Shown here in pieces: positions 15,575 through 57,349 of a DNA stretch of 64,000 nt; the stretch's first letter is position 1; every line of letters starts with the position of its first letter. The translations under genes were made by a program, and so were the position numbers. The notes under the pieces were generated by a model. The model was not told the origin of the DNA. It made no database searches and saw only the letters and a program-made list of their open reading frames with translations. This DNA comes from Arenicola marina (taxonomy: Eukaryota; Annelida; Polychaeta; Arenicolidae), in contig OZ025260.1 of assembly GCA_964019135.1 (NCBI GenBank), forward strand, positions 20,826,254-20,890,253, given 5' to 3'.

Positions 15575-15579
15575 TTTCA

Positions 15580-17380: not shown

Positions 17381-19801
17381 TGTTTGTCACCTACATATTG
17401 AAGCTCCCCGCCATACAGGAACCGCCAATATCAATGCAAACTTTTCCTCAGCGTTTTCAACATCTTTTATACCTTTCCTGGGATGTTCTTTATGCTCGTC
17501 AGTGAAGAAATATTTACCTTAATTATATCAGATATGTACACATACTTACAAAGAATGAAGGTTACCCCGGGCAAGGTCATAATTAGCGAGGAGTACCCGC
17601 TTCCCACAATGCCCTCGTCAGGCCGGGGCACCCCTCCTGCGTCGAATGTCAAGGCAGACATAACCCAATCAAAACTGCATGTTTACGACACCGTCGGCTG
17701 TGAACGGTTTACGGCAAGCACGTGTAACGATACGAAGAGGGAATAATGTTGCTGCTCGTTCCTCCCAGCGATGAGGAAAACGTCTCTTTTCAGTTTTTCT
17801 GTCGGTTTCCATTATGCACTGATGTGGTTTCCGTTGGGACGGCCAGCTGTTTGTGGCTGGATGGGGCAGGTAACTTTAATGTCGTATTGTTTTTCAGACC
17901 AAGCCAGTCTAATGACTAAATTTGCTTTGCCCTTTTAACTTCGCTGCGTCTACATGCAAGTTAGCTGTGGATATATTTTGAAACATGCATGTGTAGTCTG
18001 TCTATATGTGCCTGGTTATCACATCCCTTTAGTGACCACATTGAAATAAAGCGGGAAGGCTAAGTACCATATTTGTATTTGTAGCGGCATATGCACCTGT
18101 CACGGCTTAAAGATATCAATGTGATCGTCTAATCTGTGAACGTATTGTATTGTGGGCCTTTGGCCTACGTTGTACAGAAGATAGATACGTTCAGGCGCTG
18201 TATGACGTGATCCATGTAACACCGCTACCTGGCTGGCTTTAGCCCTAGTTCACATGGCGGTCATCGGCGCGTAGACTCGCATGCGCGTAGTTTGTCTGGG
18301 GCGGCCGGAACCGACCAAGCGGATGTTCCTCATATGACTGTGTTGGGAAGCGTTTTGATCGCATATCCCAAAGAGGCAACCAAAAATTTACAAAAGTATG
18401 CGCTCACGGTGTAGAAGGGCACTCGTGGAGAAATGGACCTCATTTTCGACCTCCGCGCTAAAGCGTGCGTCATCGTGAATAGCAACTTGACCATGCAGAT
18501 TATTCGTTTAACTTTTCCTTTTCCTGTTATTACTTAACATTATTAACATTGCTAAATATTGTGGTAAGAAACGTGTATGAAATATTTTACCAGGGAACCA
18601 GGCGGTAGAATTTTATGACAGCCTATTGTTTGTCACCTAGGACATAGCTGAGACAGGGCGGAGCAGCTATGTTGGAGTCTCTTGTGACACAGTACGGCTA
18701 CAAACAATATGCGCGAGTGACACATAACGATGAGCTCAATGCCAGCCTCAGCAATAGGTCTTATCGATGTTGTATCCTATCACGGGACCTGCCCTCTGAA
18801 ATGAACTACGTACATTTCCAAATAAAGTTAACCACCACATTGCCCTCTCATCTCCCCGCGCCCCCTCCCCCAGGTACTCGTTCTTCCGGGTTAATCCTCT
18901 TGTTATTCTTCCTGTGGTTCTGTCTTTGGGAAGAAGTCTTATTTCGGGCGAAACCGACAAGCTATTCCGCTACGTATGTGAACATCGTCTGTCAATCTTC
19001 CAAGAGACTGACTGTGAGACATCATTAATCCCTCCTCCTCCCGCCTCATCTTCCTCCACGGTGACCGCGCCCCGCATCGCCTTTCGCCCACCGCCCCCCC
19101 TTCCTCGCTGTCTGTTGCTGATCAGCTGTGACATACATATGCCACAACTCGAGGGTGAGGGGAGGGGAGGGGGGAGGGGGGAGCACACCGAATTCGCATC
19201 GCCCAATAGGTCTCGCAATTACAAGTGGCTTAGCCGCATGGTAGACTTGAGTTACTTAGAAGTCTCCTCACCAGAGCGCCCTGCCCCCCCTCCGCCAATC
19301 CCCCCGGGGGGCTGGCGGGCGCTGGTCCATCCCAGGCTGCGTAACTCGCAAATTGATGGGTAATTTTTTACCCATTATCCTTCTCCGATTTGGCCCCCAC
19401 TGTCAGAATTAAAATTCCTTCATTAAGCGTGTTATGTGGTGTCGCTATCCTGAGTCGTCAAGCGTTGGCCAAAGCAGGGTTTCAGTTTACAGTTAAGGTA
19501 CAGCACAGGGGGCGGTATTCATGCCCCACACTTAGGCTATGCCAGTAGACTTAGTAATATTGACACTTTCTTGATTCAGAAAATCCATCTCTTTGATAAA
19601 TAGTAGCCTAGGTGTGGTTTGTGGAACAAACGACCAAGGGAGTGGGGTAGGGCGTGGGGGGTGGGGGGTATGTTTTATCAGATGAAGAGTAGGGTGGTAA
19701 CTCTATCTTCTCTTCTGAGCCATATGTACGTTTATTAGCACCTTATTTATTTGTCGTCGACAAAAGGAGGGCACTTTTAAGGGTGTATACCATCCATGAT
19801 A

Positions 19802-20505
19802 AAGGCTAGCTCACACTGTGCCGGTTTATAGGCCCGGTTTACCCCTATCCTGAAAACCGGGGACAGCCTTGAATAACCCTGGGCAATCGTAGGGAATCGT
19901 AGTCAATCCAGGGTGATTCGGGGAGTACCGCGGTGAACCGTAGGTCGTCCCGGTGGTTTTTAACGGTTCAAAACTACAGGGATGAACCTAGCATCGTAGT
20001 AACATCGTAACTACTGTTTCCGCGCCAACATTGTGCGAGATGGCCCTGGTTCGTCCGGGTATATAGGGCTGTACAGTCACTACGGGATCTGATCGAGACC
20101 CCATGAGACAGAGAGACTTATGCCTTACGTCAATGCCTAGCCGCAACGGCCTGTACGTGCTGCCTTCGCTTCACACACGAAATCGGCTATGGCCTTCGAT
20201 GCACAACTAACCACTGAAGTTCTGTGTATATCAGAATTATAACAATCCGAGTAGATTTATATAATATATGAGCGATTAGACAGTTGGCATTAGTTGATGA
20301 ACCAGAATGCGGTTGTCGCATGAGTCACTGTCAATGTAAGGCGATCTAATGTGCTGCGCGGGGTTTCCCATGTCGTATGACGTATTAATCATCATGACTA
20401 GCATGCCTGCTATCTGTGGTTACGTAACAACGCTTCTTACATGGACTGACTAGGCGAGGATAATGGTGTACCGTTTGTCGCAAAAATGTAAACATTGATG
20501 ATTTG
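19802..20505 (+). mobile_element. truncated copy of the 1.1-kb inverted-repeat element
   Basis: The left end AAGGCTAGCTCACACTGTG and about 700 bp of interior match the fuller copy at 26,914-28,033. The match stops after ATTGATGATTTGCCT, where the sequence jumps to the segment equivalent to B 28,965. The right terminus is gone, so this copy cannot be mobile. Confidence 0.65.
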
Positions 20506-23500
20506 CCTATAATTCGTCACACAGTTACCCATTCACGACCCACATTAGCATGCCCCCACCCCCCCTCCCCCCCCCCACACCTAACTCCTCCAGACAAAAT
20601 ATCGTTTTCAAAGACTCACTTTTCGTTTGCGGGCCAGTGTTTTGGCCCATTGCAACGCGGCAGGGACTCGCGGCTTTCTTGCTACCAGGCGACAATCTGC
20701 TGCCGATGCAGGCTTCCGGTGTGGTCTCCGCGCCGTGACCATGAAATCAACTTCTCGCCTCATCGGAAAAACACAAAGAGAAGAGAAAACGGAGGCCCAA
20801 TGGCAAAGGGCGAGCGAGTCATGAATGTACTGGGTGGACAATGTTAGGAAATACAGGTGCCATTGCATCTGGAAATGCTGTGATTACTTCAATAAGGTTA
20901 AAGCTGCCACGGCAATTTTCCGCCTACGTTATGAATTGTCCGAATTTTGATGAAAACGCACCATGCAGGAAAGGAAATGCCGCGCGAATGTATTTTTATT
21001 GTCAATCTCAAGTGCTATGACATTAGTCTTGCAGCGGACCCGAATATATCTTATCCAACATCCTTGACGAAGCAAACGATCCACCTAAATTTCATGGCAT
21101 ATAATAGAGCGATGACTACAATGTGATTTTAATGTAAAACAATAATAATTGGAGAACAATGGGAAAAAAACATTTGGACAACAATAAGACAACAAGTGTT
21201 CAACGACAAGACAGCCCTAGACAGAAGTGACTGATCGGGATGCCCCTCTTTGCAGCCCCCTGGGGCCCAAACCAAGCCCACTGTGTCAGTTCTGACCACA
21301 GGTAGTTTCATAAGAGACATAAAAGTCCAGAAATAGGACAAGTCAAGCAGTTTGGACTTTGGAATAATAAATACGTCTGGTTCAAGACTTCCGCTTCAGC
21401 CTTTTTTAATTATCTCTCTGGATATAGGCATAGTGATGAATTTAGAAGGGTGAGGTGGCCTTTGTGCGAAGATAGCTTCATTAAACAAGACCAAAGAACC
21501 GTCCGAGATAATGAGATATGTATATTCTTGCATGTTGTACCTATTCAAAAGTGATCAAGAGCATGTAACCTGGGTTTTTTAAAATACTGTTTTGGTATGT
21601 CATTATCTGAAATAGAATGGTTTCGGGTGAAAAGAAATCCCAAGTACATCGCGTACTCTGCACTAATGATCGGCGGTTCATCGACTTGGTCGCGGCTGCC
21701 TGTTGCGAGTGCCTCTCTGGCCTATTCCAGGGTCCCAAGGGACTGAGTGTGACACCTCGACTCTAATCTTGGATTGTGTTATCGATCCTCACCACACGCA
21801 CACTACTCGTAAGGTACAGGCGAGTCTGCGACCAGCCGGTGCACTTTTATCGACTACACGAGCCTTTGATCCCAGAGCACTATTTGTCCAAGTTATGGTC
21901 GCGATGACCTTATACTGAACAACCCATAAAATAGGTGAAAGAAAAAGGACGAAATGTCGTCAAAAACTGCAGTGTAAATCCTTTCATTTATCCTCACAAA
22001 TACGTCTCTTGATTGTGCGCTTCCGCCTGTGATTCATGGCAGATTAGTGCCAGAGACTCGCGCCGGAAGGTTCCACCCAGTCCCGTCTTTAGTTAATGAA
22101 CCTCCCTCAGATATCTCGGAGTTAGGGACTGACCATTTGATATTAAGAGAGAGAGCGCATTCTTTGGTAAATAAAATTGCGTTGTTTAAGGGCTCCTTGA
22201 AAATGTGTCTAGAAAAATTAAATGCTTCCATAAGAACGGCCAAAAAATGTTTTTCGAGATGGTCTTACAATATTAATCTTGCTCCCATCAGATTGCCCAA
22301 ATTCCTTTGCCGGGGGGATCAAAAGGAAAGCGCCCTATCCCCCCCCCACCACCCCGTCACAATGGTCTGTCCCTAAGGCTTCGCCACGTGTCTTCTTGGC
22401 GTCAGCTTGTGCCCAGAGCAATGTCGGCGCGGCACCCAACGCCGCCTTACGCCGTCCATGTAGTCGGAACATTGGTCGCTTGAATTATGAATGACATTTG
22501 GAGATATATGTATATGCGGCAGACGAATATTTTCTGTGGTGGGACAAACTCCCGACTGTAAATTGTCTTTATTTACCATACATGAAACAAATGGACACGA
22601 CGCATCAATGGTTGATGGCAAATATGTAATACTTGATAATCAAATCAAGAATTCATGTTGCAAAAAACGGAATCATTCCGCTATGATAGAAATATCACAC
22701 TACTCTCTATCTCTGTCTCTCACTAAAACACTGTATAATTATAATGATATATATATATATACATATATATAACTTACTAATATCAACTGCAAAACAAGAG
22801 TGTGTGAACAAATGGTTGGATGTTAGGTTCTGTCGCGCAGGAGTGCCGTTTTACGTGATGTGCCGTAGTAAATTGTATATTATATGTTAAGTCGGGTTTA
22901 TTCGGACACGTTGAAACAGCGGTCATGCCGCTGGACAATATCTGGCTACTCTTTCCGGCTAAGATGCCGGTGATGAAACAGATTTGTATTTTGTCACGAA
23001 AGTTGCCTCAATGACAAAGAAACTTGCGTATGTCTTTAGCTTTGGTAATTGAGGTGTGCACATTACACAAGCTGAATATGAGATGCCAACCTCGCACTGA
23101 ACTCAGTTAACTTCTCCAACCTCAGATTTACAGCGCATTACATTTGAGAACTAAATCTAATAAAGCTGATATATAAACGCAACGTGATGCGAAATCGATA
23201 TCTTCCATTTATCGCCCAGTGGCGCTTTGACAACACGTTACAGCTACGTCATATTACCTCTGCCGCCAAGCTTCATATTCTCTTATCGATCCTAAAGTGA
23301 CAATGAGAGTGGTCGAGGAAAAAATGAGTTGGTTAGCTTTCTTTAATCACATGAGCCAGATTAATATTGCTACTCAGTCCATGGCGAGGATATTCCTGTA
23401 CTTGTTCATTCAATAAGATGCCCCGTAACCCACTCAACAAGCCACTCCCCAGAGCTACCAACAAGTGAATGACGTAAAGATGATATGCGTACTAACTACC

Positions 23501-24154
23501 GAAATAAAAAATCCTACACGACACGGGACGATGCAGAGGAAAATATAATGTAAATAGAAGTGAGACGGCAAAAACCTGATAGACATTCACCCTCTCCACA
23601 GTCTGGCGACCCGACGTGCTTTTTACGTCTGTCTGCGATACAGGCCTTGGAGACGTTGAATGATTTATAAAAACTACGGAGATGAAGGCTCGCGTTAGAC
23701 CCGTTAACAGGAGCCGGACGAACGCGGAATTACAAATGCAATTAGCTAACTGGGCAAATCCCAGGCAAAGTGTCCATATTGTAACTAAGTCCCATTGAGA
23801 ACGGTAAGGCTCGTGTGGCTTTTGAAACAGCCGCGATGGAAAAGAGAAAAAGAAAAAGAGGATTGATAGCTTTGGTTAATAGACAGATCTGGGGAGTGTT
23901 TTTGCTCGTGGCGTGGCGAGAACTGTCTTCAATGAAGAACCAGAATGTAGTCGACAACCTCCTCTTCCGACAATGTCAAGTTCTTACAATCACAGACCAT
24001 AGTAAAATCAAGGACCTTCTCACACGTTGTCAAAGGGGCTTTGGATTTTCACCCTATTTGCCAAGCAATTTCGACCTAAACAAGCAGTGCATCTTTCCAA
24101 CTGATCTCGACTTTAACAGTAAACGTAAGGTTTCAAAAACAGATTTTGCGCTAA

Positions 24155-24535
24155 GATTGATTAGTCCGTTGACATCGAGACAATACCGATTAGACTGGTG
24201 GTATCGCGGTAATACCATCTAGACACTTGGCATCGAGACAAAACCGATTAGACCCTTGGAGTCGAGATAAAACCCATAAGACACTTGGCATCAAGTCAAT
24301 ACCGATTAGACCCTTGGCATCGAGACAATATCGACTAGACCCTTAGCATAGAGACAATACCGACTAGACACTTGGCATCAAGTCAATACCGATTAGACCC
24401 TTGGCATCGAGAAAATATCAACTAGATCCTCAGCATCGAGACAATACCGATTAAACACTTGGCATCAAGTCAATACCGATTAGACCCTTGGCGTCGAGAC
24501 AATATCGACCAGGCGTTAAATGCCGAAACAATGAC
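24155..24535. repeat. 29-bp minisatellite in copy A
   Basis: Units of the form CGAGACAATACCGATTAGAC + CCTTGGCAT alternate with a CAAGTCAATACCGATTAGAC variant, about 13 copies. The orthologous position holds an array of the same family in copies B and C. Confidence 0.9.
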
Positions 24536-25066
24536 GCTCGGGGTGCAACTGTCATAGCGATAGGGTGTTGAGCGATTTACGATGTATTGCTCCATTGAGA
24601 GTTCTTTAATCTGGCATGACCTTGGTTGCAAGGTCGTATGCATTCAGCGCAGCATAGTGTGGTCCCAATGCTCATACCACTCCCTCCCCCCCCCCCGCTA
24701 CCAACACCAACCACATCATCGTCCCATGTAGGCTACTCCCAAAAGCCCACAAAACTGTCCGTATATTTCAGGATATGCGATACGGTGGTAACAACTGGTG
24801 CGATGTCAGCCACAGCCCTCCCCCACCCCCGCCGCCAATAACCACACCTTCTGAAGTGCCCCACAAAACCAGGTGTGACTGGAGCATTGTGTGGTGATTG
24901 CACCCCCAACCCTCGCAGTCACATGGTCCACGGTCGCTGCAGCACCTCATAGGACAGCTCGGACATTTCCGACTCTCCTCGCCATTGTTGCATTCTGCCT
25001 TCCACACAGACGCACGCACGTGACGTGTTGGCCATGCTCCTTTCGTTTTTTTTTTATTATTATCTT

Positions 25067-25457
25067 AATAAAAACCCGCCGCAATAAGACCCCCGGCATG
25101 CATATGGAAGGTTGACTTATTATTGCTCAGGGCCGTATGGCACCCCGCCGCAGACAGAACTCCGGACGTGAATTGCTAACGGCCATCATTGATATTTTGG
25201 GGCATGCATTTTTAGCATGTCTATAAGTGCCTAGTTATCACATCCCTTTGGCGACCACATAAAAATAAAAACCCGCCGCAATAAGACTCCCGGCATGCAT
25301 ATGGAAGGTTGATTTATTATTGCTCAGGGCCGTATGGCACTCCGCCGCAGACAGAACTCCGGCAGTGAATTGCTAACGGCCATCATTTATATTTTGGGGC
25401 ATGCATTTGTAGCATGTCTATAAAGTGCCTAGTTATCACATCCCTTTGGCGACCACA
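25067..25457 (+). repeat. 197-bp tandem duplication at the A/B junction
   Basis: AATAAAAACCCGCCGCAAT occurs at 25,067 and 25,264. Each copy fuses an end-of-unit segment (CCGCCGCAATAAGAC to GCTAACGGCCATCA) with a start-of-unit segment (GCATGTCTATAAGTGCC to TTTGGCGACCACAT). The fusion is a recombination scar that joins two out-of-register units. Confidence 0.85.
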
Positions 25458-26913
25458 TTGAAATACAACTGGAATTCTAAGTGGCATAGATTTGTATTAA
25501 TTAATAAGGCAGTTGCATAAATATGCTCTCATGCAGTAGAAGGGCAGTCGTAGAGAAATGGACCCCATTTTCGACCTCCGTGCTAATGCGTGCGGCGTCG
25601 TGAATAACCACTTGGCCATGAAGATTATTCGTTTAACTTTTCCTTTTACATATATTACTTAACATTGTTAATATTGCTAAATATAGTGGAAAGAAACATG
25701 TATGAAATATTTTACCAGGGAACCAGGCGGTCGAATTTTATGACAGCCTATTGTTTGTTACCTAGGACATAGCTGAGACAGGGATTGTGACATCACACGG
25801 CTGCAATTAATATGGGCGAGTGAGACATAACGATGGGCTCAATGTCAGCCTCAGCAATATGTCTTATCAATGTCGTATCCTATCACGGGACTGCTTTCTC
25901 AAATGAACCACATAAATTCCCAAATGAAGTTAACCACCGCATTGCCTCCCTCCTCATCCGCCCCCCCCCCCAACAATCCTTTTGTTCGTCTTGCAGTGGT
26001 TCTGTCTTGGGGAAGAAGACGTCTTCTTCGAGCGAAACCGGCAAGCTATTCCGCTACGTATGTGGACATCGTCTGTCAGTCTTCCATGAGACTGACCGTG
26101 GGACATCATTAATCCCTCCTCCTTCCCCCTCATCTTCCTCCACGGTGATCGCGTCCCGCATCGCCTTTCGCCCACCGCCCCCCCCCCCACCCCCAACCCC
26201 CCCCTCCCCTTCCTCGCCGTCTGTTTCGCTGATCAGCTGTGGCATACATATACCACAACTCGAGGGTGAGAGGAGGGGGGGGGGCGCACACCTAACTCTG
26301 CATCGCCCAATAGGTCTCGCAATTGCAAGTGGCTTACCCGCATGGTAGACTTGAGTTACTTAGAACGTAACCTCACCAGAGCGCCCTGCCCCCCTCCGCC
26401 AATCCACCAGGGGGGCTGGCTGGCGCTGGTCCATCCCAGGCTGCGTAACTCACAAATTCATGGGTTAATGTTTACCCATTAGAGAATCCTTCTTCGATTT
26501 GGTTACTTAAGCGTGTTGCCAAACCACGGTTTCAGTTTACAATTAAGGTACCGCACCAAGGGCGGTATTCATGCACTACACTTAGGCTACGCCAGTAGAC
26601 TTAGTAATATTGACCCTTTCTTGATTCAGAAAATCCACCTCTTTGATCAATACTTGTATTACGATGTATTTTGAACCCTTTAAATTGCTCGACATATGTT
26701 CCATTTAGCGCTAAATCTATTGGCGTAGCCTTGGTGTGGTTTATGGAACTAACGACCAAGGGAGTGGGGTGGGGCCGGGGTATGTTCTATTGGATGAAGA
26801 GTAGGGTGGTAACTCTATTTTGTCTTTTGAGCCATATGTACTTTTATTAGAACTTTATTTATTTGTCGTCGATAAAAAGAGGGCACTTTTAAGGGTGTAT
26901 ACCATCCATGATA

Positions 26914-28033
26914 AAGGTTAGCTCGCACTGCGCTGGTTTATATGCCCGGTTTACCCCGGTCCTAAAGACCGTGGACAACCTTGGACAACCCTGGGCAATC
27001 GTAAGGAGTTCGTCGTCAATCTGGGGTGATTCGGGGGAGTACCGCGGTGAACCGAAGGTCGTCTCGATGTTTTTTAACGGTTCAAACTACCGGGATGAAA
27101 AGTAGTATCGTAGTAACATCGTGTCCTACTGTTTTCGCGCCAACATTGTGCGAGATGGCCCCAGTTCGTCCCGGTATATAGGGCTGTACAGTCATTACGG
27201 GATCTTATCGAGACCCTACGAGACAGGGCGACTTATGCTCTACGTCAATGCCTAGCAGTAACGGCCTGTACGTGCTGCCTACCTTCCTGTTGTTTGCCCT
27301 CACTCGCTTCACACACAAAATCGGCGAAAGCTGTCCTTGGATGCACAATTAACCACTGAAGTTCTGTGCATATGAGAATTATAACCATCCGTCGAGCAGT
27401 GTTATATAATATATGAGCGATTAGACAGAATGCTGTTGTCTCGTAAGTCACTGTCAGTGTCAGACGATCTAATGAGCTGCGCGGGGTTTCCCGGCCATGT
27501 CGCATGACGTAATAATCATCATGACTCGCATGCCTGCGCGTGGTATCTATGGTTACGTAACAACGCTCCCTATAGGGACTGACCAGGCGAGGATAATGGT
27601 GTTCCGTTTGTCGCAAAAAATGTAAACATTGATGATTTGCCTCAAAATACAACGCTTTATACAGTCTCGTCGAATAAACCACCAGTATTATAGGGAGATA
27701 AATGTCTTATCTTTAACTATATTATGATTTTATAGTTAGGAATGCCTGGACCAAAGCAAACAAAAAATAGTTTCACACCCACACGATTCTTTACGCACAA
27801 ACCGCGCCGCCGACCGGTTCCCAACACACGAACGTTGACTACAATGAGTGCGCGTCACACAGCTGTAGCAAGGCACCAGCGTGATGCGCACTCGTTCTAA
27901 GAGCCCGTGTTTTTTTTGTTAGTCCCTAAAAGACCTAAACCGGAAATAGAACCCGCGAGAATTGTACAGCCCTATAGACCGGGGAGGACCTGGGTAAACC
28001 GTTGCCTAAGACGACACAGTGTGAGCTTGCCTT
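26914..28033. mobile_element. 1.1-kb inverted-repeat DNA element (non-autonomous)
   Basis: The left end AAGGTTAGCTCGCACTGCG and the inverse of the right end AAGGCAAGCTCACACTGTG match at 15 of 19 positions. A second inverted pair lies inside (TATATAGGGCTGTACAG near 27,176 and CTGTACAATTCTCG-side sequence, read inversely, near 27,960). Copy C has the equivalent of the empty site (CCATCCTTGTTAAGGATGAG at about 43,770-43,790), which shows the block is an insertion. No transposase frame is seen. The superfamily is unassigned because the target duplication is not clear. Confidence 0.7.
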
Positions 28034-28965
28034 CAAGATGAGTCCCCACCGTGGGCCCTTTGACGACCGTGTCACCCCTGGATCCATCACAGGGTACACC
28101 AGCTTACTTACCCAGTTTTGTGCTTTTTAATCCTAGGTTCCAATGCCAATTGCCAGCAAGATCAATGTCGAAACCTGTCATTGATTGCCTCAACGAGAGG
28201 CGAAAAACGAGAAAGGCACTTCCCAACATGATTAAAATTTACCTGCACGGCGATGGCGTTTTCTCTTTCACTCTGTAGCCTTGTTACAAACGCGCATCTC
28301 TTCACACTGACACTCCAAAGATCAGTCAAAAGGGGAAACGCATGGCCTGATTGACAGCTGAAAGGTGCCGAAAGGGTGACTGATGGCGGAGAGGGACAGG
28401 CATCATAACATATGAGTCAGTGATTGGTGGCGAATCGTTAGAGGATGTTCTGTTCACAACCCACTGGGCACGAATGCAGCAGCACTGTGGGCCTTGGGAT
28501 CATCGCCCCCATTAATCACCTGCCGTAAGCTCCCACGCCCCGCCGTAATGGCCCAGTAACTGAAAGAATTCAATGCAATGTCAGTCTGAAGTAATGGTCT
28601 GCCAGAGCCGGGGGAAAATTCAACGGCTTAAGCGCCATTTATCTCTGGGCACTATGTGCGGATGTTTTCTTTTCTCTTTCTTTCATTGCACCAATCAGTG
28701 GATTTATGTTTTACTCTGTGATCGGCAGATAATTCAATCATAATGAAGGTATGCCCCTACACCACCCAATTGGGTTTTGTTTTATGTGGGCTCTTTCAAG
28801 AGAAATGATATTGTTTTCCGTATTTGTATATACAGAACCCCCAACCTCTCTAGCTCTCACCCTCTCTCTCTCTCTGGCTCTCTGTTATATGAGATTTCTG
28901 AGCCACCACCGATATGCCATCGCATCCAACCACAAGATTTCCGGAGCGCGTGTGGCTAATTCGTC
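28034..28965 (+). other. well-conserved non-coding block of the tandem unit (copy B)
   Basis: This stretch aligns with C 43,785-44,730 with few gaps. Both copies keep TGATTGACAG (28,348-28,357 and 44,102-44,111), a Pbx/Meis-type composite, and GAGTCAGTGATTGGTGGCG. They also keep GCCATTTATC and CACCAATCAGTGGATTTATG. No frame is conserved. Whether the block is regulatory or merely a young duplicate cannot be told from two copies. Confidence 0.45.
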
Positions 28966-39879: not shown

Positions 39880-41134
39880 CTTTCCTTTCCGTGACGAAAT
39901 TTCAGTGATGGATGGAATGCTCTTCAGAGGCGAACGTGTGATAATTCCAAGCAGTCTACGTGAGTCGCTTAAACAGAGGATTCACTCGTCTCATCTGGGA
40001 ATAGAAGGATGCCTGCGTCGAGCGAGGGAAGCTATGTATTGGCCCCAGATGAATCAGGAAATCAAAGACTACATCCAAACATGTGATGTATGCCGCAAGT
40101 ATGAAATCAATCAACAACCTGAACCAATGATAAGTCACGAAATACCTAACAGACCTTGGGCTAAGGTAGCCAGTGATTTATTTCATTTGAAAGGGAGAGA
40201 CTATCTTGTGACAGTAGACTATCTCAGTAATTTCTGGGAAGTAGACAAGCTTGAAAATACAGAATCAAAGACTGTGATCAAGAAACTCAAGGCTCATTTC
40301 TCAAGATATGGCATACCAGATATATTTATCAGTGATAATGGCCCTCAATTCTCTTGCAATGAATTTCAACAGTTTTCCCGGCTGTGGGAGTTTCATCATC
40401 GTACCTCCAGCCCAGGAAACAGCCAAGCGAATGGGAAAGCAGAGTCCGCAGTAAAGACTGCAAAGCGGATACTCCTGAAGTGTATTGAAGACCGCAGTGA
40501 TCCATACTTGGCGATGCTTGATCATCGGAACACACCATCGAAAGGGTTTGACACTGCACCTGTTCAGCGTCTTATGCACCGTAGGACCAAGACTTTGCTT
40601 CCTACAACCACAAAACTGCTCAAGTCTAATGTTGAAGATATTGACAGGACCATGAACTATATCAAACGTAATCAACGTAAGCAAGCTCAATATTACAATC
40701 GAGCAGCTAAAGAGCTTTCACCTTTGAAGGAAGGCGATGTCGTCAGGATCAAACCATTGGTTCTGGGTCGCAAGGAATGGAAGAAAGCACAGGTTACGCG
40801 ACAACTGGATCAAAGATCATACGAAGTTCAGTCACCTACAGGAGTGCTTCGTCGAAATCGTCGCCATCTTCGGAAAACTTTGGAACAACCAACCGATCAC
40901 GTCGCTCCTGAAGACGTTATCACGGCAAAGTCATCGTCGCAAGAAACACCTGCTGGATTCAGTGCTACTGCTAGCCCTGAGTCTCATCCAAACTCATCCG
41001 AAACTCTGGTACCGCCGGCAGTCAGTTCCAGTCCTAGTGTGGAACAGCCTTCACCAGACACTCTAGCAAAGCGGCAGACGAGAAGCGGACGGATCATCAA
41101 GATGCCAGTTCGATTTAAAGACTATCAAACTTAG
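39880..41134 (+). CDS. Gypsy element: integrase part
   Basis: It has an HHCC zinc-binding region (H-x-x-H-LGIEGCLRRAREAMYW...C-x2-C, about 39,980-40,100). The D,D35E core follows, with SDNGPQF near 40,330 and a Glu in NGKAESAVKTAK. The C-terminal part is SH3-like (KEGDVVRIKPL...) before a Ser/Pro-rich tail. Typical of Gypsy elements of marine invertebrates. Confidence 0.9.
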
Positions 41135-41264
41135 ACTTATTATACATATGAACTGTCGATGACATTGTAGTCTGATACTTACATGGGTAATTTTGATTAT
41201 AGCCTTTGAATATTAATAATTGCATTTAACTCCTAACTAATTAGAAATAACTTAGAAGGGGAGA

Positions 41265-41440
41265 TGTTACATAATTGACAATTATTGAACGATAAACATG
41301 ATTCCGGTATTTCATTATTAAGATTGATCACGTGATCATGTGGTCATGTGACATCTGTCATCTAGCTGTCACTTCTTAGCATTCGAACAATAGCCGGCTG
41401 AGTGTGCACTTCGACATTATAAAATAAAGAGAATATAACA
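41265..41440 (+). repeat. 3' LTR of the Gypsy element
   Basis: It runs from TGTTACATAATTG to AATATAACA, preceded by the purine tract at 41,254-41,264. Confidence 0.93.
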
Positions 41441-44400
41441 CCTACATTGAAGTATTTGTAGTAACTGTGTGGATCAATACGTGCATTACACCGACAGAAC
41501 AGTTCGAGCGTAGAAGAATCATTCCGGTTGAAGATGATAATGCCACAATAATGTCACATTTACCCGCACGTACACTGTGAACTTCGAGTTTCCAATCTAA
41601 AAGATATTGCACAGATGATTTCACAACAAATGCGTGCAACCACATGAGGTGCACAGCTATAGACGGCAAACAAGTCTCATCTGTCTGCGCGTTTCTTGGG
41701 AGAGTCTCTCCTTTAGCTCTCCTTTAGTTCCTGGACAACGTGCAAATGTGCAAACAATGTACTTCAGTACACACAAACCACGTGCGTCTAAAAGTCACAC
41801 CGGGCAAGGTCATAATTAGGGAGGAGTACCCGCTTATCACAATGCCCTCGTTAGACTGGGGCACCCCTCCTGCGTCGGATGTCTCAACGCAGACATGACC
41901 CAATCAAAACCCTGTATTTTTACGACACCGTCGGCTGGGAACGGTTTACTGCAAGCACGTGAGATGATACGAAAAAGGGATAAAGTTGCTGCTCGTTCCT
42001 CCCAGAAATGGGGAAAACGTCTGTTTTCATGTTTTGCTGTCGGTTTTCATTATGCATTGATATGGTTTCAGTTGGGACGGCCAGCTGTTTGTGGCTGGAT
42101 GGGACAGGTAACTTTAATGCATTGTTTTTCAGACCAAACCAGTCTAATGACTAAATTTGCTTTTCGCTGCGACTACATGCAAGTTAGCTGCAGTTATATT
42201 TGAAGCATGCATGTAGCATGTCTATAAGTGCCTAGCTATCACATCCCTTTAGCGACCTCATTGCAATACAACGGGGACGATAATTAAGTGGCATACTTGT
42301 ATTTGTAGCAGCATATATATCTGTCACGGCTTAATGATGTCGATGTAATTTATTAATGTATTATAACGTGGGTCTACGGCCTACGTTGTACAGAATATAG
42401 ATACGTACATTTGCTGTATGACGTGATCCATGTAGGCGCGTAGACTCCGATGCACGTACTGCACCAAGTTTTTCTCCTGTTGGGGCTAGTAGAACTGGCT
42501 GGCCGGAACAGACCAAGCGGACGTTCCTCAGATGACTGTGTTAGGAACCGTTTTGATCGCATATTCTAAAGAGGCAGGAAGATTATTCTTTTTACTTTGA
42601 CGTTTCCATATATACTTCGTCATGCCTTGACTTGGACAAATATTGCTACATATGGTGGAAAGAAACGTGTATGAAATATGTTACCAAGGAACCAGCCGGT
42701 CGAATTCTATGACATCCTATTCAGGGTTTACTAGGTCACAACTGTGATTGGGCGGAGCCGCTATGTCGGGATATCAGTTGGACATATCGATGGGCACAAT
42801 ATCAGTCTCAGCAATAGGTCTTATCGATTTCGTAGCCTATCACGGGACCTGCTCTCTAAAACGAACCACGTAAATTTCCAAATAAAGTTACAAACCACAG
42901 TTTCCTGCCGGGTTATTCTGTTGTTGTTATTGCTGTGTCTCTGTCTAAGGAAAAAGACTAGCTATTCCGCGACGTATGTGGACATCGTCGCTTAGTTTCC
43001 AGGAGACTGACCGTGGGACAGCATTACCCCCCCACCCCTCTTCCTCCACGTCCACCCCGCCCCCGCCCCTCCCCCTGTTTCGCTGAGTAGCCGTAAAATA
43101 CATATCCCACCTCGAGGGTGGGAGGGGAGGGAGGGCACACTAAACTCTGCACCGCCCATGTCTCGCAATTACAAGTGACTTAGCCGCATGGTAGACTTGA
43201 GTTACTTAGAAGTCTCGCCACCAGAGCACCCCCCACCTCTAATCCACCTCCCCCCCCGGAGGGTTCATTGCGTTAATTTTTTACCCATTAGAGCCGGCTT
43301 CTTCCATTTGACCCACTGGCATAATTTAAATTCGTTAATTAAACGTGCTGTGTGGTATCGATATCTTGAATCGTCAAGTGGTGGCCAAATGACCAGGGTT
43401 TGAGTTTTTTTTAATTAAGGTATCACACCAGGAGCAGTATTCATGCACCACACTTAGGCTAGGCCAGTAGACTTAGTAAATTTGACACATTCTTGATTCA
43501 GAAAATCCACCTCTTGGGTGAATACCTATATATTTTGAACCCGATAAATTGCTCAACAAAATGTTCCACTAAGTGATAAGTCTATCGGCGCATCTTCAGT
43601 GTGGTTTATAGAACTAACGACCAAAGGGGTGGGTTTAGGCTGGGGGTGGGGGGATTTTGTATCGGAGGAATGGTGTGTTGGTGACTCGATCTTCTTGGCC
43701 ATATATACTTTTATTAGAACCTTATTTATTTGTCGTCGATAAAAAGAGGGCACTTTTAAGAGGGTACACCATCCTTGTTAAGGATGAGTCCCCACCGTGG
43801 GCCATTTGACGAGCGTGTCACCCCCTGGATCCATTACAGGGCACACCAGCTCACTTAAACAGTTTTGTGCTTTTTAATCCTATGCTTCCGTGCTAATTAC
43901 CAGCAGGATCAATTTCGAAACATGTCATTGATTGCCTCAACGAGAAGCAAGGAACGAGAATGAAACTTTCCAACAATTAGGACTAAAAAATGAGCCTGCA
44001 CGGCTATGGTGTTTTCTCTCTCACCCTGTAGCCCTTGTTTCGAACACGCATCTCCTCACACCCACACTCCAAAGATCAGTCAAAAGGGGAAAGCCATGGC
44101 CTGATTGACAGCTGAAAGGTTTCGAGAGAGTGAATGTTGGCGGACAGGGACAGATATCATAACACATGAGTCAGTGATTGGTGGCGAATCGTTAGAGGAT
44201 ATCCTGTTCAGAACCCACTGGCCACCAATGCAGCAGCACTGTGGGCTTTGGGATCATCGTCCCCGTTGATCACCTGCTGTAAGCTCCCACGCCCCGCCGT
44301 AATGGCCCAGTAATTGAGAGAATTTAATGCAATGACAGCCTGAAGGGATTGTCTGCCAGAGCCTGGGAGCCTGGGCTTAAGCGCCATTTATCACTAGGCA

Positions 44401-44765
44401 GTATGTCCAGAAGCTTTTTTAAAAATCTTCTTTCACCGCACCAATCAGTGGATTTATGTTTTACTCTTTGATCGGGGGATAGTTCAATCACAATAAACGT
44501 ATGCGACGAAACCACCCAATTCGTTTTTGTTTTTATACTGATTTTTGCCATACGGGCTCTTTCCAGAGAAATGATATTTTTTGCGTATTAGCATAGCCCC
44601 ACCCTCTCTAGCTCCCACTATCTCTATCTCGCTCTCTCTGGCTCTCTGTTATGTCAGATTTCTTAGCCACCACCGATATCCCATCGCATCCAACCACACG
44701 ATTTCCGGAGCGCCTGCGGCTAATTCATCACACAGTTACCCATGGACGACCCACCATTAGCATGC

Positions 44766-45345
44766 CCATTTCTCTTTGAAGGGAACAAGTCAGACAAACG
44801 ACACCTTGCGTAAGACATGACATTAGTATTTGGGCGAAAAGTACTATATTGATCAAGGTCGCGCTTCCAAGGTCATGGTCACATCAAGGTCAAGGTTACG
44901 AAACACGTTTTTCCGCGTAACTTCGTCAATATTTGATTCGCGGTTTGTTTCAGAGTATTCTTCAGAGACATGCGCAAAAGTAATGTGCCTCAGATTTCAC
45001 CTCACATTTATAGTTTTCGAGTTATTTGATGATAAATTTTGACATTGCCGAAAGTGCAAAAAAATCGCTGTGACTACATAAATGCAGGTAGATGACTCAT
45101 ATCTAGCGGAATATGTACCCATATTACTGGCATCACGTTTGCCATATTGCATCAAAATCGAAGCAGTAATTTAGACGCTGGCAAATTATCACACTGTAAC
45201 ATAGCCAAGCCCATTATAAAGCCTCGATACGCCACATGACCGACGGCGTGCCAGGCCAACGTCATGAAATGGGTCTTAACATAGTCGAATGGTCCCATAG
45301 CCACAATTTTCGTCTTCCTTCTCAAGCTCTGCTTGACCGTCTAGT
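44766..45345. mobile_element. copy-C-specific insertion with AGGTCA-like half-sites
   Basis: Flanks that are close together in A and B (CCCACATTAGCA... and ...TTATCACTTTTCGTTTGC) are separated here by about 0.57 kb of unrelated sequence. It contains CAAGGTCGCG, CAAGGTCATGGTCAC and ATCAAGGTCAAGGTTAC, then CGCGTAACTTCGTCAATATT. A similar arrangement lies at 61,080-61,200, so it is probably a dispersed repeat. Termini were not resolved. Confidence 0.55.
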
Positions 45346-48300
45346 TATCACTTTTCGTTTGCATGCCAGTATTTTTGCCCATTGCAACCTGCTACCAGGC
45401 GGAAGTCTGGTCATTCTCATGCCGCTGCAGGCTTCCGGTGTGGTCTCCGCGCCGTGACCAAGAAATCAGCTTCTCCCCTCATCGAAAAAGCACGCAAAGA
45501 AGAGAAAACCGAGGCCCAATGGCAAAGGGCGAGTGAATTCACTCGTTCGCTGGATCTCAGCGATCTGGGGTTTTTTATGTGACGTTGACGCGCTCAGACG
45601 TCGTTGTGTACTTTAGTTAAACCCTAAGTTACCTTAACCCCAGAACGAATCAGTTCTGGGTCGACAATGTTAGGAAATACAGGTGCCATTACATCTGCAA
45701 ATGCTGTGATTACTTCAAGTAGGTTAAAGCTGCAACAGCGATTTTCCGCCTACGTTATCGATTGTCCGAATTTTGCTGACAACGATCCATGCAGGAGTGG
45801 ATACTTTTATTGTCAATCTCAAGTACTACTCAGATATCGTGAAATTAGTCTCGCAGCGGTTCGATTTTATCCTAACCAACATCCTTGACGAAGCAAATGA
45901 TCAACCTTAAATTCATTGGCATATAATGGAGCGATATAACTTCAATGTGGTTTTAATGTCAAACAATAAGAAAATAATTGGACAGCAATGAGAAAAGTTG
46001 GACAACAATAAGACAACAACAGAACCATGAAAGGACAGCCCTAGGCCGATATTACTGACAGAAGAGACTGATCGGGGTACCTCTCTTTGCAGCACCTTGG
46101 TGCCCACACCAAGCCCCCTGTAGCAATTCTGAGCGCAGGTATTTTCAGAGATAAGAAGTCCAGCAAGAGGACAAGTCAAGCAGTTTGGATTTTGTAAGTA
46201 ATAAATACGTCAGGTTGAAGACTTTGCATTCAGCCTTCTGTAATTAACTGTACGGATATAGGGATAGTGATGAAATTAGAAGGGTGAGGTGGCCTTTGTG
46301 CCCAGATAGCTTCATTAAACAGGACCAAAGAGCCTTCCGAGATATGAGATATGTATATTCTTTCATTTTGTATTCAAGAAATTACACATGAATGGATTTA
46401 ATATCCATTAAAAAGTCATCAAGAGCATTTAACCTTGAGTTTTTTAAATACTGTTTTGGTCACATTTCTGAAGTAGTATAGTTTCGGTGAAAAGAAATCC
46501 CAAGTAAATCGCGTACCTTGCGCTAATGTTCGGCGGTCCACCGAGTTCGTCGCGGCTGCATGTTGCCAGTGCCTCTCTGGCCTATTTCCGAGTCCCAGGA
46601 GACTGAGTGTCACACCTCGACTTTCACCTTAGATTGTGTTATCGATCCTCAAGACGGGGACACTACTGGTAAGATACAGGCGAGCCTGCGACCAGCCGGT
46701 GCACTTGCATCGACTACACGAGCCTTTGATCCCAGAGCACTAATTGTCCAAGTTATGGTCGCGATTGCATTATGCTGAACAACCCATAACATGGGTGAAA
46801 GAAAAACAGGTCAACGAGTTGGAATGAAGGCAAGGAGTGTTTACTCACTTACCTCGGAGCTTAATGAACACAAAAATATCGCGTTATAAAATACTCACCG
46901 GATGCCTGCGGGTTATGGCGGATATAGCCACACCAGGTGACCTTGCCGGCGTGACTCGGGAGGTGGCGGCGCAGGAAACAGCAAACCGGAAGTAGGAAAA
47001 ATGACTGCGTTGGTACAATGGCTCGTACGTCCTGCTTTGTCGTAATCAAGGCGGTGATGATGACGGCTTGGCAGAACCTTGCCCCAGGTCACGAAACTTG
47101 GATCTGGGGATCTATCGCCGGCCGTCTTCCTCGTCGTCTCTTCCTCGAGAATACAGCGACAGTTCGGAGAGGGAGACGAGGCAGACAGATCAAGGCTAAA
47201 GTGCCTTGGTCGGTGAAGGAAGGACGGAGAGGAAGGAAGGAGACGAGTCTCCCCCCTCCCCCGCATGCATGAAGGGGGTATCGTATCAGTTCCAAGGCAG
47301 AGGTACTCAATATGTGATTTTATCTCCCGAAGCCACATGAGACAATCTTACATTAAGCCCCCTTGGCGCCTCTCACCACGTCCATTCCCAATTCGTCACC
47401 CCCTCCCACCCCCACCCTCTGCCGCCTTGTCTTAATTTCTTATCCCTAGATGAAGGAAGAGGATCAATTTAGCCTCCCGATCTCCGGAGGGATGATGCAC
47501 ACACAACACGTCAAGCCTACAATGTCAAACTGACGCCGTTTTTTCACGGCTGATTTGTGACGGATAGCAGCAGAGTAAATCCTCTCATTTGTCTTCATAC
47601 ATACGCCTCTTGATTCTGCGCTTCCGCCTGTGATTCATGGCGGATTAGCGACAGAGACTCGCACCGGAAGGTTCCGCCCAGTCCCGTCTTAATGAACCTC
47701 CCTCATATATCTCGGAGTAAGGGACCGACCATTTGATATTGAGAGAGAGAGAGGGAGGCGGGGGAGGGGGGGGGCGGGTTGCTTTGGCTTTTTTTTCGAA
47801 AAATATATTTTCTGCGCATATTCTTTCCCAAAAAAAGTTAGAAAAAAGTAAGATTATTTATGAATAAAACTATTTAAATGCTTTCGAACCGCAACACAAT
47901 TTTCTTCCTTTAACGATGGTCCCCCCAAAATTTCTCCGATCTTAGTGCCCGCAAAATCCTTTGCCGGGGAGGGGGGTGGTAAAAACCAGAGCGCTCCTCC
48001 CCCTTCTCCCTTCTCAAAAACCAATAGTCGGTCCCTAAGGCTTCGCCACGCGTTATTTCTTGACGTCACCTTCTGCCCAGAGCAATGGCAGCGACGCAGC
48101 CGACGCCGTCTTACGCCGTCCGTGTGGCCGGCACATTGGTTGCTTGAATTATAAATGACATTTGGATATATATATATATATAAACGCGGCAGACGAATAT
48201 TGTCTGTAGGGGGACAAACTCCCACCTGTAAATTGTCTTTATTTGCCATACTTGGAAGCAATGAACACGAGGCATCAATAGTTGAAGATACATATGTAAT

Positions 48301-49129
48301 ACGTAATTAAACAAATCAAGAGTATCATGTTACAAACGGAATCATTTTTATCCATACACAATTAATTTACACATACATATATATATATATATAACAAGCT
48401 TGTATAATCTGTAAAACAAAACTGTGGGAAGAAATGGTTGGATCTTGGGTTCTGTCGAGCAGGGGTGCCGCCTTATGTGATATGTTGTAATAAATGGCAT
48501 ATTATATGTTAAGTCTGATTTATTCGGACACTTTGGAACAGCGGCCATGCCGATGGAAAATAACTGGCTACTCCTTCCGGCTAAGATGCCGTTGTTGAAT
48601 CAAATTTATTCTGTCAATAAAGTCCCCTCAATGAAAAAGAAAAGTATGTCTTTGGCTTCGGTAATTGAGGTGTGCACATTACTAAAGCTGAATATGAGGT
48701 GTCAACCTCGCACTGAACTCACTTAACTTCTCCCACCTCAGATTTAGGGTGTATTAAATTTGAGAAATAAATCCAATAAAGCTGATATATAAACGCAACG
48801 TGATGCAAAATCGATATCTTTCATTTATCGTCCAGTGGCGCTTTGACAACACGTGACAGCTACGTCATATTAACTCTGCCGCCCAGCTTCATATTCTTTT
48901 ATTAATCTTAAACTGAGAATGAGAGAGGGCGAGAAAAAATGAGTTGGGTAGCTTTCTTAAATCACATGAGCCAAATTAATTTTGCTACTGAATCCATGGC
49001 GGGGATATTCCTATGCTTGTTTAGTCAACAAGATTCGCCGTAATCCATTCAACAAGCCATCCCCCAGAGCTACCAACAAGTGAATGACGTAAAGATAATA
49101 TGCGTACTAACTACCGAAATAAAAAATGG

Positions 49130-49445
49130 CATCGTGACAATACAGACTAGAACCTTGGCATCGAGACAATACCGATTAGACTATTGCCATTGATTCAATA
49201 CCGACTAGACACTTGGCATCAAGTCAATGCCGACTAGACCCTTGGCATCGAGTCAATACCGATTAGACTCTTGGCATTCAGACAATACCGGTTAGACACT
49301 TGGCAACGAGACAATACCGATTAGACACTTGGCATCGAGACAACACCGATTAGACACTTGGCATCGAGACAATACTGACTCGACACTTGGCATCGATACA
49401 ATACCGACTAGACACTTGGCATCGAGACAATACCAAACAGATGTT
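49130..49445. repeat. 29-bp minisatellite in copy C
   Basis: About 11 units of the CGAGACAATACCGATTAGAC + ACTTGGCAT family, mainly the ACTTGGCAT variant. The type composition differs from A and B. Confidence 0.9.
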
Positions 49446-51391
49446 AAACTCTGAGAGAATGACTCCCGGGTGCTAATGTCATAGTGATAATGTGTTGAGT
49501 GATTTACGATGTATTGCTCCATTGAGAGGTCGCATTCAGCGCAGCTTAGTGTTGTCCCAATGCTCGCCCCCCCCCCCCCCTCCCACCCGCTACCCCCACC
49601 AACCACATCATCGTCCCATGTAGGCTACTCTCGAAGGCCCACAAAACGTTCCCCATCTTTCAGGAATTGCGATAAGCTGGTAACAACTGGTGCGATGTCA
49701 GCCACAGCCCTCCCGCGTCCCCCCGCCGCCATTAACCACACCTTCTGAAGCACGTGATGGCGCCCCCGCCCCACCCTCACCCCCGCAGTCACGTGGTCCC
49801 GGTGGCTGCACCACCCCATGGGACAGCTCGGACATTTCCGGCTCTCCTCGCGATTGTTGCACTCTTCCTCCCGCACAGACGCACGCACGTGACATTTTGG
49901 TCATGCTCTTTACATGTGTGTTTTTTTATTATTATCTTGATAAAAACCCTCCGCAATAAGACTCCCGGCATGCATCTGGCGGGTTGATTTATTATTGCTC
50001 AGGGCCACATTGCACCCCGCCTCAAACAGAGCTCGGCAGCGAAATGCAAACGGCAATCAATTAGACCTAAACCAGATGACGACTTTTCGCGACGCAATAA
50101 AACGATCCAAGCTGTTAAGCCATTAATTGACGTCACTGTTGCTTTTATCCAGTCATATGGTGAAAAAGCTCTTCCACGTGCGGACGCAAAAACAAAGCAG
50201 CATGTCATTCTGTTGTCAGTTTCAGAGATAAGTACTACTACCTCACTTGTATCTACCATCAACTATGATGTCAATTTCAGGCTCACGATTAAGCAAAGAG
50301 GACTCAGGCGTGGGCGGGGCTTAGTGTCGGAGTGTGGATCGGTCTATTATGACCGACACACAACAACTGTTACCGTAGTCCTCGTCTAAAAATCCTCGCA
50401 TTGATTCCGCGCGCGATGGCTATATTCTCTGGATTTTCCATCTAAAGAGGTCACGTGCCACCGAGTCACGACCGGTAACCTGACTCCCACACCGAGGCGG
50501 AATGTTGTGGCCAAGGGGCAACGCTCGCCCTCAGTGTATCCCTCGCGTGTACGCCATATTGCCTGTCACATGGGGTCTGGCTCTCTTTCGGCAATCTCGA
50601 CAACACTAGACTTTATTCATTATTGGGGTTGTAGTGCCAGTTATAGCAGTGGGAATGATAACAGGTATTTGCTAAATTAATAGATTATGCCGCACTAGCT
50701 AATATCCGTCGATAATATGTGTCGATGTCACCCGATACCGCTTTACCCTGCACTGCCACCCCCCCCCCCATCCCCCGCCTCCCCCTGTCCCCTACCCTCT
50801 CTCCCCAGCACAACATCCACTCCCCGGTCTGCCGCCACCACGCTGCGTGCCACTCTCTGCCTGACCGACCCGGGCGGCGAGACGATTAGTTCGGACACCT
50901 CTCGCGAGGGGGCTGATAGCCCCGCGCGCCGCGTTCATTCACCTGTCGGGGCGCCACTGTGCGGACTCCGGCGCCTCGATGACAACGCCTTCTGCTGTAA
51001 TAGCCCTGCGATACGACACCGCTACGTGATTCGGCCACCCCCCCCCCCCCCCCCCCCCCTCCCACACTCTCCACGGCCACATCGACCCCTCCCCGCTGGC
51101 TAGATCGCTCCCACACCCCTTCCCGCTCCCACACTCCTCCCCGTACTCGCCTGCGTGCTTGACACCCCCCCACCCCCCGCCACACACCACCCCACCCCCT
51201 CGCCCTTGGCATTCGCAGATATCGACCGCTGTGTCGGGTTCAGATTAAAACTTTTGTTTTGATTTGTCCCAGGATTGTTCCATGGGATAATGATTCAAAT
51301 ACGACTTAACTACGCCGTCGGCACCGCATTAACATGGCACTGAACAAACTCACTCCACTCCACCCGATTTGGGTACATTCAGTTCCGCCCG

Positions 51392-51483
51392 GCCCGGCCC
51401 GGGTTGGCTCGGCTCGGCTCGGCTCGGCTCGGCTCGGCTTGGCTCGGCTCGGCTCTGGCTCGGCTCGGCTCGGCTCGGCTCGG
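51392..51483. repeat. (GGCTC)n pentanucleotide repeat, copy C
   Basis: Nearly pure tandem CGGCT pentamers with a few substitutions, about 18 units. Confidence 0.9.
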
Positions 51484-52302
51484 ATATCTGATCTGTTTAC
51501 GTGCTTCACACGGAAGTAATGAACTGGATGTAATCCTCTTTTATTTCGGTTTCTGCCGGTCGAGCACGCTGGACATGCGCAGTATAGTTAACCCAACTGG
51601 GCCATCAGGCGGTCACCGCCTTAACCACTATCACTGAAATCGACAATTCAACAATGTGCCGTAACTAAGAAAACATAAGCCAAATTTATGAGCTTTCTCA
51701 CAAGAAAACAGGCGAAAACGTCAGTAATTGTGGTTAATGTACTAGCGCTCTGTGCTTCGCTCCGCACGATTACTACCGCTAAGAGTTATTGTCCCTGGAA
51801 GAAAAATAAATAATCAATCGGATTCTGGTCCCTAAAATCATGGTTAGTTCTACCAATGGCGGAAAACAACAGACGAACCGAACAAATTTAACTTTCCACT
51901 GAGGATTTGATTTTTTGCAGGATTTATATGAAAACAAATGGCTGAAAACTTATACCTTGGACTCGCCTGCAGGCAGAGGTGGTAGCGAGCGCTGGCCGTT
52001 CCTTCTCGTCCATGTCTCGGGAGCTACCATCGCGCCCTTCTCTCTAGTCCCTACCGTCAGCATTGAATATCTGCACCATAATCGGCCTCCTGACTGGGCT
52101 ATATCACTTCTCTATAGACTGATATCAACATGTGGGCTGTTAAGGAATAAAGAGGCCTGAGCATTTGTGGGACGTTGAACCTCCCTCAATAACACGAGGT
52201 TTTTTTGGGGGCGGGGACTTCAAAGAAAATATTTTGTGCACCGAAACAGTTATATTGAAGTGAATCATTATTTTGCCCTGTATGTTTGGTTAGTCCCATG
52301 CT

Positions 52303-52420
52303 TGAGGGACCCTCCGTGGCTGAGTTGGCAGCGCACTGAGCCTCATACTAACAGACCAGCCGCCATCATGCTCGGCATCGACATGAGCAGTGTGTTACAA
52401 ATCATTTATATCGCATTCTC
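52303..52420 (+). other. tRNA-like (A-box) segment, copy C
   Basis: TGGCTGAGTTGG at 52,316-52,327 with a similar flank to the copy at 36,752. No clear B-box. CCAGGTAAGC at about 52,448 downstream resembles a splice donor. Confidence 0.3.
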
Positions 52421-52689
52421 CTGTGTTGCTCATTATGGCCCTGTCTAACCAGGTAAGCACAAACGGTGGAACTGTCTGTTCAATCAACACATACACCATA
52501 GTTAAGCAAAAATATAATGAACAGACACTTTTGGACAAAAGTATGATCCTAATTTATTAGCAGACATTCCAATCGCTTGTCATTGTCAATATACATGCTG
52601 AAGTAAACAAATGGAACTATGCTTTCGCTTTCAGGTGGGCAAACCGCTGACACTGGTCTCAAACACGGTCTGGGTTTTCCCGTCGGTTT

Positions 52690-53888
52690 CGAGTAAATCG
52701 AACACATTGTAGCATTTGTTGTAACTGTGCGGACCAATACATGAGTTACGCGGCTAAAACGGGTCGCTCGTGGAAGAATGACTCATATTGATAATAATAA
52801 TGACAAAATAATGTCACATATACACTGCGGACATTACACATGTTGGCTGAGTTTCCAAGCTGAGATATATTGCGCAGATGATGACACAACAAATGCGTGC
52901 AACAACATGAGATGCACGGCTATAGACGGCAAACATGTTCTGTCTGTTTTCGCGTTTCTTGAGGAAAGTCAGCTCTCCTTTATCTCTCCTATCCTCGACA
53001 ATGTACAAATGTGCAAACAATGTACTACAGTACACACAAATCACGTGCGTCTAAAGGTCACACCGGGCAGGTTCATAATTAGCGAGGAGTACCCGCTTCC
53101 CACAATGTCCTCGTTAGGCCGGGGCGCCCCTCCCGCGTCGGATGTCAAAGCAGACATGACCCAATCAAAACATTGTATTTTACGACGCCGTCGGTTGTGA
53201 ACGGTTTACGGCAAGCACGTGAGATGATACGAAGAGGGAATAAAGTTGCTGCTCGTTCCTCCCAGCAATGAGCAAAACGTCTGTTCTCAGTTTTTCTGCC
53301 GGTTTCCATTATGCATTGATGTGGTTTCAGTCGGGACGGCCAGTTGTTAGTGGCTGGAAGGCGCAGGTAACTATAATTGTTGTTTTTCAGACCAAACCAG
53401 TCTAATGACTAAATTTGCTTTTCCCTTTTAACTTCACTGCGACTACAGACAAGTTAGCTGTGGATATAGTTTGGAACATGCACGTAGCCTGTCTATAAGT
53501 ACCTTGTTTCACTTGCCTTTAATGACAACATTGCAAAAAAAAGCGGGAAAGTTAAGTGCCATATTTTTATTTGTAGCAGCGTATGCACCTGTTACGGGTT
53601 AAATAGGTCAATGTTAATGTATTGTAACGTGGGTCTATGGCTTACGCCATACTAAATGTAGACACGTACATTTGTTGTATTATTATAAGTGGCGTGATCC
53701 GTGTAGCATTTCTACCGGGCCAGCTTTATCCCCTGTCCACATGACGGTCGTAGGCGCGTAGATTCAGATGCGCGTAGTTTTTCTCCAGTTGGGGCTAGGG
53801 TGGTCGGAACACATATGTTCCTCATATGACTGGGATTTGATCGCATATTCAAGGCGTTTTGGGCCGCATATTCCGAAGAGGCAGTAAA
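52690..53888 (+). repeat. copy D of the tandem unit, left end only
   Basis: It aligns with C from 41,441 (GTAACTGTGCGGACCAATAC) through the landmark GGCAGGTTCATAATTAGCG (about 53,066) and GGGACGGCCAGTTGTTAG (about 53,333). It ends after CATATTCCGAAGAGGCAG. The array ends here. The 140-codon frame across its start is not kept in A or C and is not called as a gene. Confidence 0.82.
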
Positions 53889-57345: not shown

Positions 57346-57349
57346 CCGG

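Follow-up and report, generated by a model that had tools for sequence, protein, structure and literature searches.

A low-copy tandem array of 11-kb units and its relatives on one chromosome of Arenicola marina

The window analysed here, a 64,000-nucleotide stretch of Arenicola marina DNA (C13:20826254-20890253, from an 867-Mb genome in 762 contigs), holds ordered blocks that recur on one strand between positions 17558 and 53888, and the question that this locus raises is what class of repeat they form. A preliminary description, made by eye, offered three readings: a macrosatellite, a locally amplified regulatory or non-coding RNA region, or an unknown large non-autonomous element. We favour a reading close to the first of these, in which the array is a low-copy, non-coding tandem segmental duplication, confined to chromosome C13 as far as our searches show and shaped by unequal exchange and block copying, and we give this reading a probability of roughly 0.86.

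Layout of the array and its surroundings

Self-comparison by BLAST resolves the array into three colinear units, A, B and C, and a stub, D (Table 1). Same-strand matches more than 5 kb apart within the array (53 at E<1e-10) fall on parallel diagonals, as the preliminary description had anticipated; no inverted matches were found at this distance and threshold, and off-diagonal matches were absent from all ten dinucleotide shuffles of its sequence. The ordered landmarks that it had placed at 17553-53888, over ~36 kb, therefore recur at 17558-53888. Its four copies are a real repeat but come down to three units, since D is only a stub, and its period of about 11.26 kb holds from C to D (41444-42419 against 52704-53680, 81% identical and 11,260 bp apart) but is not constant. 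A and B are spaced by only ~7-9 kb because of a deletion where they join, A lacking the positions after C-coordinate ~50063 and B those before ~42191, while the spacing of B and C reaches ~15.6-17 kb because a retrotransposon sits between them. Other pairs in the self-comparison are 22387-25188 with 31438-34324 (87%), 29367-30877 with 45653-47157 (79%) and 35849-36897 with 51406-52464 (83%); overall, the window's units A, B and C share 85-88% identity. A 197-bp tandem duplication (25067-25465) lies at the A/B junction.

Table 1. Features of the array, its flank and its relatives on C13 (window positions unless C13 is given).
Feature	Position	Strand	Remarks
Tail of multicopy, weakly VWA-like host gene	15574-16605	+	3' flank fused to array at ~17545-17557
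Unit A	17558-25389	+	lacks the unit's first ~350 bp and all beyond C-coordinate ~50063 (self-BLAST, unit map)
Unit B	25384-36917	+	starts at C-coordinate ~42191 (self-BLAST, unit map)
LTR retrotransposon, gypsy-like by eye	36918-41440	+	~4.5 kb, between B and C
Unit C	41441-52703	+	longest unit, 11,263 bp; reference
Dispersed-repeat insertion, 577 bp	44768-45345	+	restricted to unit C of arrays W and S
Best hairpin, 91 nt	47049-47139		window z -4.74 (column shuffle); z -3.48 (dinucleotide shuffle, unit C)
29-bp minisatellite	49127-49434 (C)	+	also 24159-24508 in A, 33226-33657 in B; family marker
Short dispersed repeat, ~255 bp	50095-50350	+	SINE/MITE-like in size
Unit D	52704-53888	+	5' stub (1.2 kb) of a further unit; array end
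Array W (window array)	C13 20.84-20.88 Mb		3 units and stub
Array S	C13 21.374-21.413 Mb	inverted relative to W	3 units and stub
Array T	C13 28.50-28.61 Mb	both	12 blocks, several partial (9 minus, 3 plus)
Unit fragment	C13 21.335 Mb		90-92% identical to one end of T

The LTR retrotransposon is a passenger that lies outside the repeat unit. Its two 171-bp repeats (36918-37088 and 41270-41440) are 100% identical and enclose gag-pol-like reading frames, the family being called by eye, so the earlier statement that the interval holds no terminal repeats or transposase was wrong. No target-site duplication of 3-8 bp was found around the element, and the TGTTA that precedes its 3' LTR is absent before the 5' LTR, which suggests that a rearrangement removed its left edge. 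The compared 10-kb pieces of arrays S and T (n=20, L009-L028) contain no match to the LTR.

The array begins, as had been noted, just past the poly(A) signal of a two-exon gene, ~200 bp 3' of the AATAAA at 17355. The tail of this host gene has ten matches on C13 and C14. Its copy at C13:20.82 Mb extends upstream into a VWA-like region (E 0.004, below the Pfam cut-off) and is missing the stretch that matches ~15939-16247; a structure-database search with the host-gene piece returned no hits.

Several further repeats surround the array. A 43-bp satellite (68 copies, 12666-15576) adjoins the 5' side of the two-exon gene, where another copy of the gene has upstream coding sequence, and it also flanks a gene copy at C13:21.06 Mb and occurs at C4:3.34 Mb. 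We considered it as a centromere repeat and rejected this, as its 140 matches include, among those listed, one C4 site and two C13 sites, and so few sites make it unlike a genome-wide centromere repeat. Upstream of it lies a G-rich minisatellite (7577-11462; 3.9 kb, 30-bp unit, ~129 copies) with a GC skew of up to 0.63 per 2 kb, whose period, divisible by three, allows its long stop-free frames on both strands. To the right of the array, 55166-60883 contains duplicated blocks that are 96.6% and 97.7% alike, a 105-bp tandem repeat and reverse-transcriptase-like frames that are DIRS-like by eye.

Distribution and copying history on C13

The genome was searched with five stretches of the unit family, and the best candidates of each search were scored (40 of 2749, 39 of 4652, 40 of 171, 18 of 18 and 16 of 16), a limit under which weak dispersed relatives may escape. 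All substantial unit matches among the candidates scored lie on C13, embedded short dispersed repeats aside, and this includes the genome-wide search with copy C that the preliminary description had proposed. The matches off C13 fall on small parts of the unit: with unit C as the query they lie at C-coordinates ~44768-45365 (up to 815 bits; best 39 of 4652) and ~50094-50369 (up to 260 bits; best 40 of 2749), and from unit A they lie in an embedded short repeat at 18222-18378 (best 40 of 171). A single 54-bp match was found on C19 (18 of 18 candidates scored). On C13 itself the unit family forms three arrays, W, S and T, and a fragment.

Repeated insertion of a large non-autonomous transposable element, previously unknown, would place the unit at several C13 sites in both orientations, as is seen. 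However, the units stand head-to-tail, their order is kept between arrays, and no full or partial unit was found off C13 among the scored candidates, embedded short repeats aside. The ends also differ from site to site: the window's unit A starts at C-coordinate 41791, and the starts seen in T include 41444 and 42191 among others. The thousands of dispersed copies with defined ends that would mark an ordinary element were not found among the candidates scored. Given this result and the lack of fixed unit ends, we reject this reading as extremely improbable.

Two observations concern the edges of these arrays. Array T switches orientation around C13:28526144-28526892 (L017), from plus-strand to minus-strand blocks; those on the plus strand share 85-91% identity with the rest, and the mixed arrangement therefore looks old. 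The stretch just past the right end of the window array (53897-54701) matches C13:28.623 Mb (92%), which is the side of array T opposite to that predicted from the unit order. Elsewhere in the assembly, the protein genes that could be recognised by eye in the mitochondrial contig C762 (15,942 bp) share a single strand and run ND4L-ND4-ND1-ND3-ND2-COX1-COX2-ATP8-COX3-ND6-CYTB-ATP6-ND5, an order that we take to be annelid-like; the COX1 frame of this contig is readable with the invertebrate code (code 5).

Anchoring to unit C gave 22 unit blocks, 20 of which span over 600 bp, with W and S contributing four each and T twelve; junction slivers of 194 and 249 bp were left out, and the 21.335-Mb fragment is also outside the 20. 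Each unit of the window has an orthologue in the other arrays, with identities of 95% (W-S) and 93% (W-T) for A, 96% and 94% for B, 98% and 95% for C, and 97% and 96% for D. These values of 93-98% between arrays, against the 85-88% among A, B and C within the window, indicate that the tandem array predates the block copying. A midpoint-rooted FastTree of the 20 unit copies agrees: the grouping (T,(W,S)) has a support of 1.0 for A, for B and for C, and for D the W and S stubs pair with a support of 0.99, this pair joining T units at 1.0, although two deep nodes are weak (0.22 and 0.41). As A, B, C and the stub D of the window each cluster with their namesakes in the other arrays, a ready-made tandem array appears to have been copied as a block.

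Markers that do not depend on the tree are concordant with it. The A/B junction (an end at ~50063 followed by a start at ~42191) is common to W, S and T, the 577-bp insertion occurs in C of W and S only, and the LTR element is unmatched in the S and T pieces, which gives the order of two insertions. The W/S duplication takes in the flanking gene (97.3% over 15585-19100). Within T, three units (at 28532661, 28544158 and 28556358; 11.5, 12.2 and 12.2 kb) are 97-98% alike, which points to later local tandem amplification.

From these data we infer the following order of events. A segment of ~11.3 kb would have been tandemly duplicated, presumably by unequal exchange, and the resulting ordered array A-B-C-...-D would then have been block-copied along C13; one copy may next have been re-duplicated in inverted orientation ~0.5 Mb away, flanking gene included, to give W and S, and some units of T would have been re-amplified locally by unequal exchange. 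Separate transposable-element insertions and deletions would have accumulated in the copies, and the block copying between T and W/S may have run in either direction. None of our results contradicts this duplication history.

The copies have diverged unevenly along the unit, which agrees with the patchy conservation described by eye. The mean pairwise identity of ten representative units is 86.9% in 100-bp windows (n=203, sd 5.0) but drops to 64-77% in places. Of the three deepest drops, two coincide with minisatellites (49127-49434 and 51390-51483), and the deepest, near 43191-43390, lies outside any array listed by TRF. The 21-base core of the 29-bp minisatellite has 60 genome-wide matches with at most one mismatch, all 60 on C13. 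The 577-bp insertion has a coverage of 1.00 in C of W and S and of 0-0.01 in the other 18 unit rows, and the ~255-bp repeat, which occurs on many chromosomes, is present at a coverage of at least 0.89 in 9 of the 20 rows. The 577-bp element likewise has matches on many chromosomes, with copies ~1 kb apart on C2, C4 and C8.

Coding and RNA content of the unit

Tandem arrays of such size are often gene families, and the gene next to the array also exists in several copies, spread over C13 and C14. It is conceivable on these grounds that the units are a decayed tandem gene family with exons past recognition. Against this, evidence of coding constraint was not convincing in any of 845 overlapping 35-codon windows that are stop-free in unit C (the highest z, 3.2 on 16 changes, is at 50801-50905). 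Nor do indels favour lengths divisible by three: 295 of 1542 are of this kind, with 796 leaving a remainder of 1 and 451 a remainder of 2. When two copies of the flanking-gene tail were compared, the ratios of nonsynonymous to synonymous changes were 8:1 and 6:3, a sign of little constraint that makes the tail unfit as a positive control; the absence from the unit of a conserved open frame under purifying selection is thus the result of a test without a successful positive control. Nine unit frames, drawn from the 206 of at least 35 amino acids in 41440-53900, were also put to Pfam, and none matched at the curated cut-off, with two weak matches (E 0.025 and 0.3). Nor did the candidates scored reveal, by DNA, a parental locus elsewhere in the genome. 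We therefore consider a decayed gene family highly improbable, and the earlier view that the unit encodes no conserved protein stands as far as the 845 windows and nine frames reach.

An array of RNA genes (rRNA, snRNA, tRNA or known ncRNA) was considered and rejected, as the window contains no Rfam match at gathering score and no tRNA; in unit C at E<=1, Rfam gives only two hits, with E values of 0.76 and 0.94, far below the cut-offs. A broader proposal is that the units are a functional non-coding locus, such as a lncRNA or a piRNA cluster, whose copy number matters. Some 20 unit copies exist, the arrays contain transposable-element fragments and minisatellites, and one block (46541-47690) is 88-94% identical, above the mean for the unit. 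This block holds the best-scoring hairpin, which folds better than shuffled sequence and in which, over ten distinct unit rows, 98.2% of the cells pair, against 36-57% when partners are slid by 1-3 columns, with 9 further pair types against 3-6.

The same hairpin also gives results that speak against this proposal. The scan covered 254 windows, of which six had z<-3, and with a mean z of -0.5 (sd 1.25) the best value of -4.7 is marginal. The hairpin is present in 13 of the 20 unit rows; four rows stop short of it, and three span the site yet do not have it. After three identical rows were dropped, the ten distinct rows contain no compensatory pairs, and no measure stands out from letter shuffles, which reach each of them in 500 of 500 cases. 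The control with slid partners, moreover, is biased in favour of a structure that was itself derived from the sequences under test. In a second hairpin (48645-48790), a single pair is compensatory, and the dinucleotide shuffle gives a z of -1.45. Taken with the lack of any Rfam family at gathering score, these results make a functional non-coding locus very unlikely, and the suggested regulatory or ncRNA region finds no support in Rfam, in the pairing of the best hairpin or in coding constraint. The array is probably neutral, and we infer a lack of function along with unequal crossing over as the mechanism of its growth.

Class of the repeat and its meaning

Low-copy repeats, or intrachromosomal segmental duplications, exceed 1 kb and 90% identity and occur in inverted and direct arrangement. 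The W, S and T blocks resemble them in length (>1 kb), in identity (>90%, with units 93-98% alike), in their inverted and direct arrangement and in their mosaic with a neighbouring gene duplication, and no dispersed transposable element explains them; the difference is that the block duplicated here is an older tandem array. A macrosatellite, the first of the earlier readings, fits in part. The array is low-copy, specific to C13 and head-to-tail, with multi-kilobase units (11.26 kb from C to D; 11.5, 12.2 and 12.2 kb in T), but tens of near-identical units were not found, as W and S each consist of three units plus a stub, T comprises 12 blocks and the window's A-C are 85-88% alike.

Human macro- and megasatellites are among the closest known systems. 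They are tandem arrays of kilobase-scale units, and their classification includes arrays related by duplication inside a single chromosome (PMC2588610); our array shares both the unit scale and the within-chromosome duplication of arrays, unlike them in its few and divergent units. For human LTR arrays, it was inferred that segmental duplication spread them and that unequal crossing over acted afterwards, with a transposable-element insertion as a marker (PMC2588610); the unit in Arenicola marina, by contrast, is not built of LTR elements, and all copies found are on one chromosome, whereas the spread inferred for those human LTR arrays is interchromosomal.

Our literature search found nothing on macrosatellites or segmentally duplicated tandem arrays in annelids, so the case is probably undescribed, while its kind is known. 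A more speculative idea, which we hold to be very doubtful indeed, is that a dosage-dependent non-coding locus, for example a source of germline small RNAs, was block-copied along C13 and that the inverted W and S copies, ~0.5 Mb apart, drive recurrent inversion of the DNA that separates them.

Read as a segmental duplication, the locus shows that a tandem array without a conserved protein can be of this ordinary kind. The inverted W and S copies, 95-98% alike, are candidate inversion breakpoints. The tree and the insertion markers make the history of a non-coding array readable in order: tandem growth, block copying, an inverted copy and local re-amplification.
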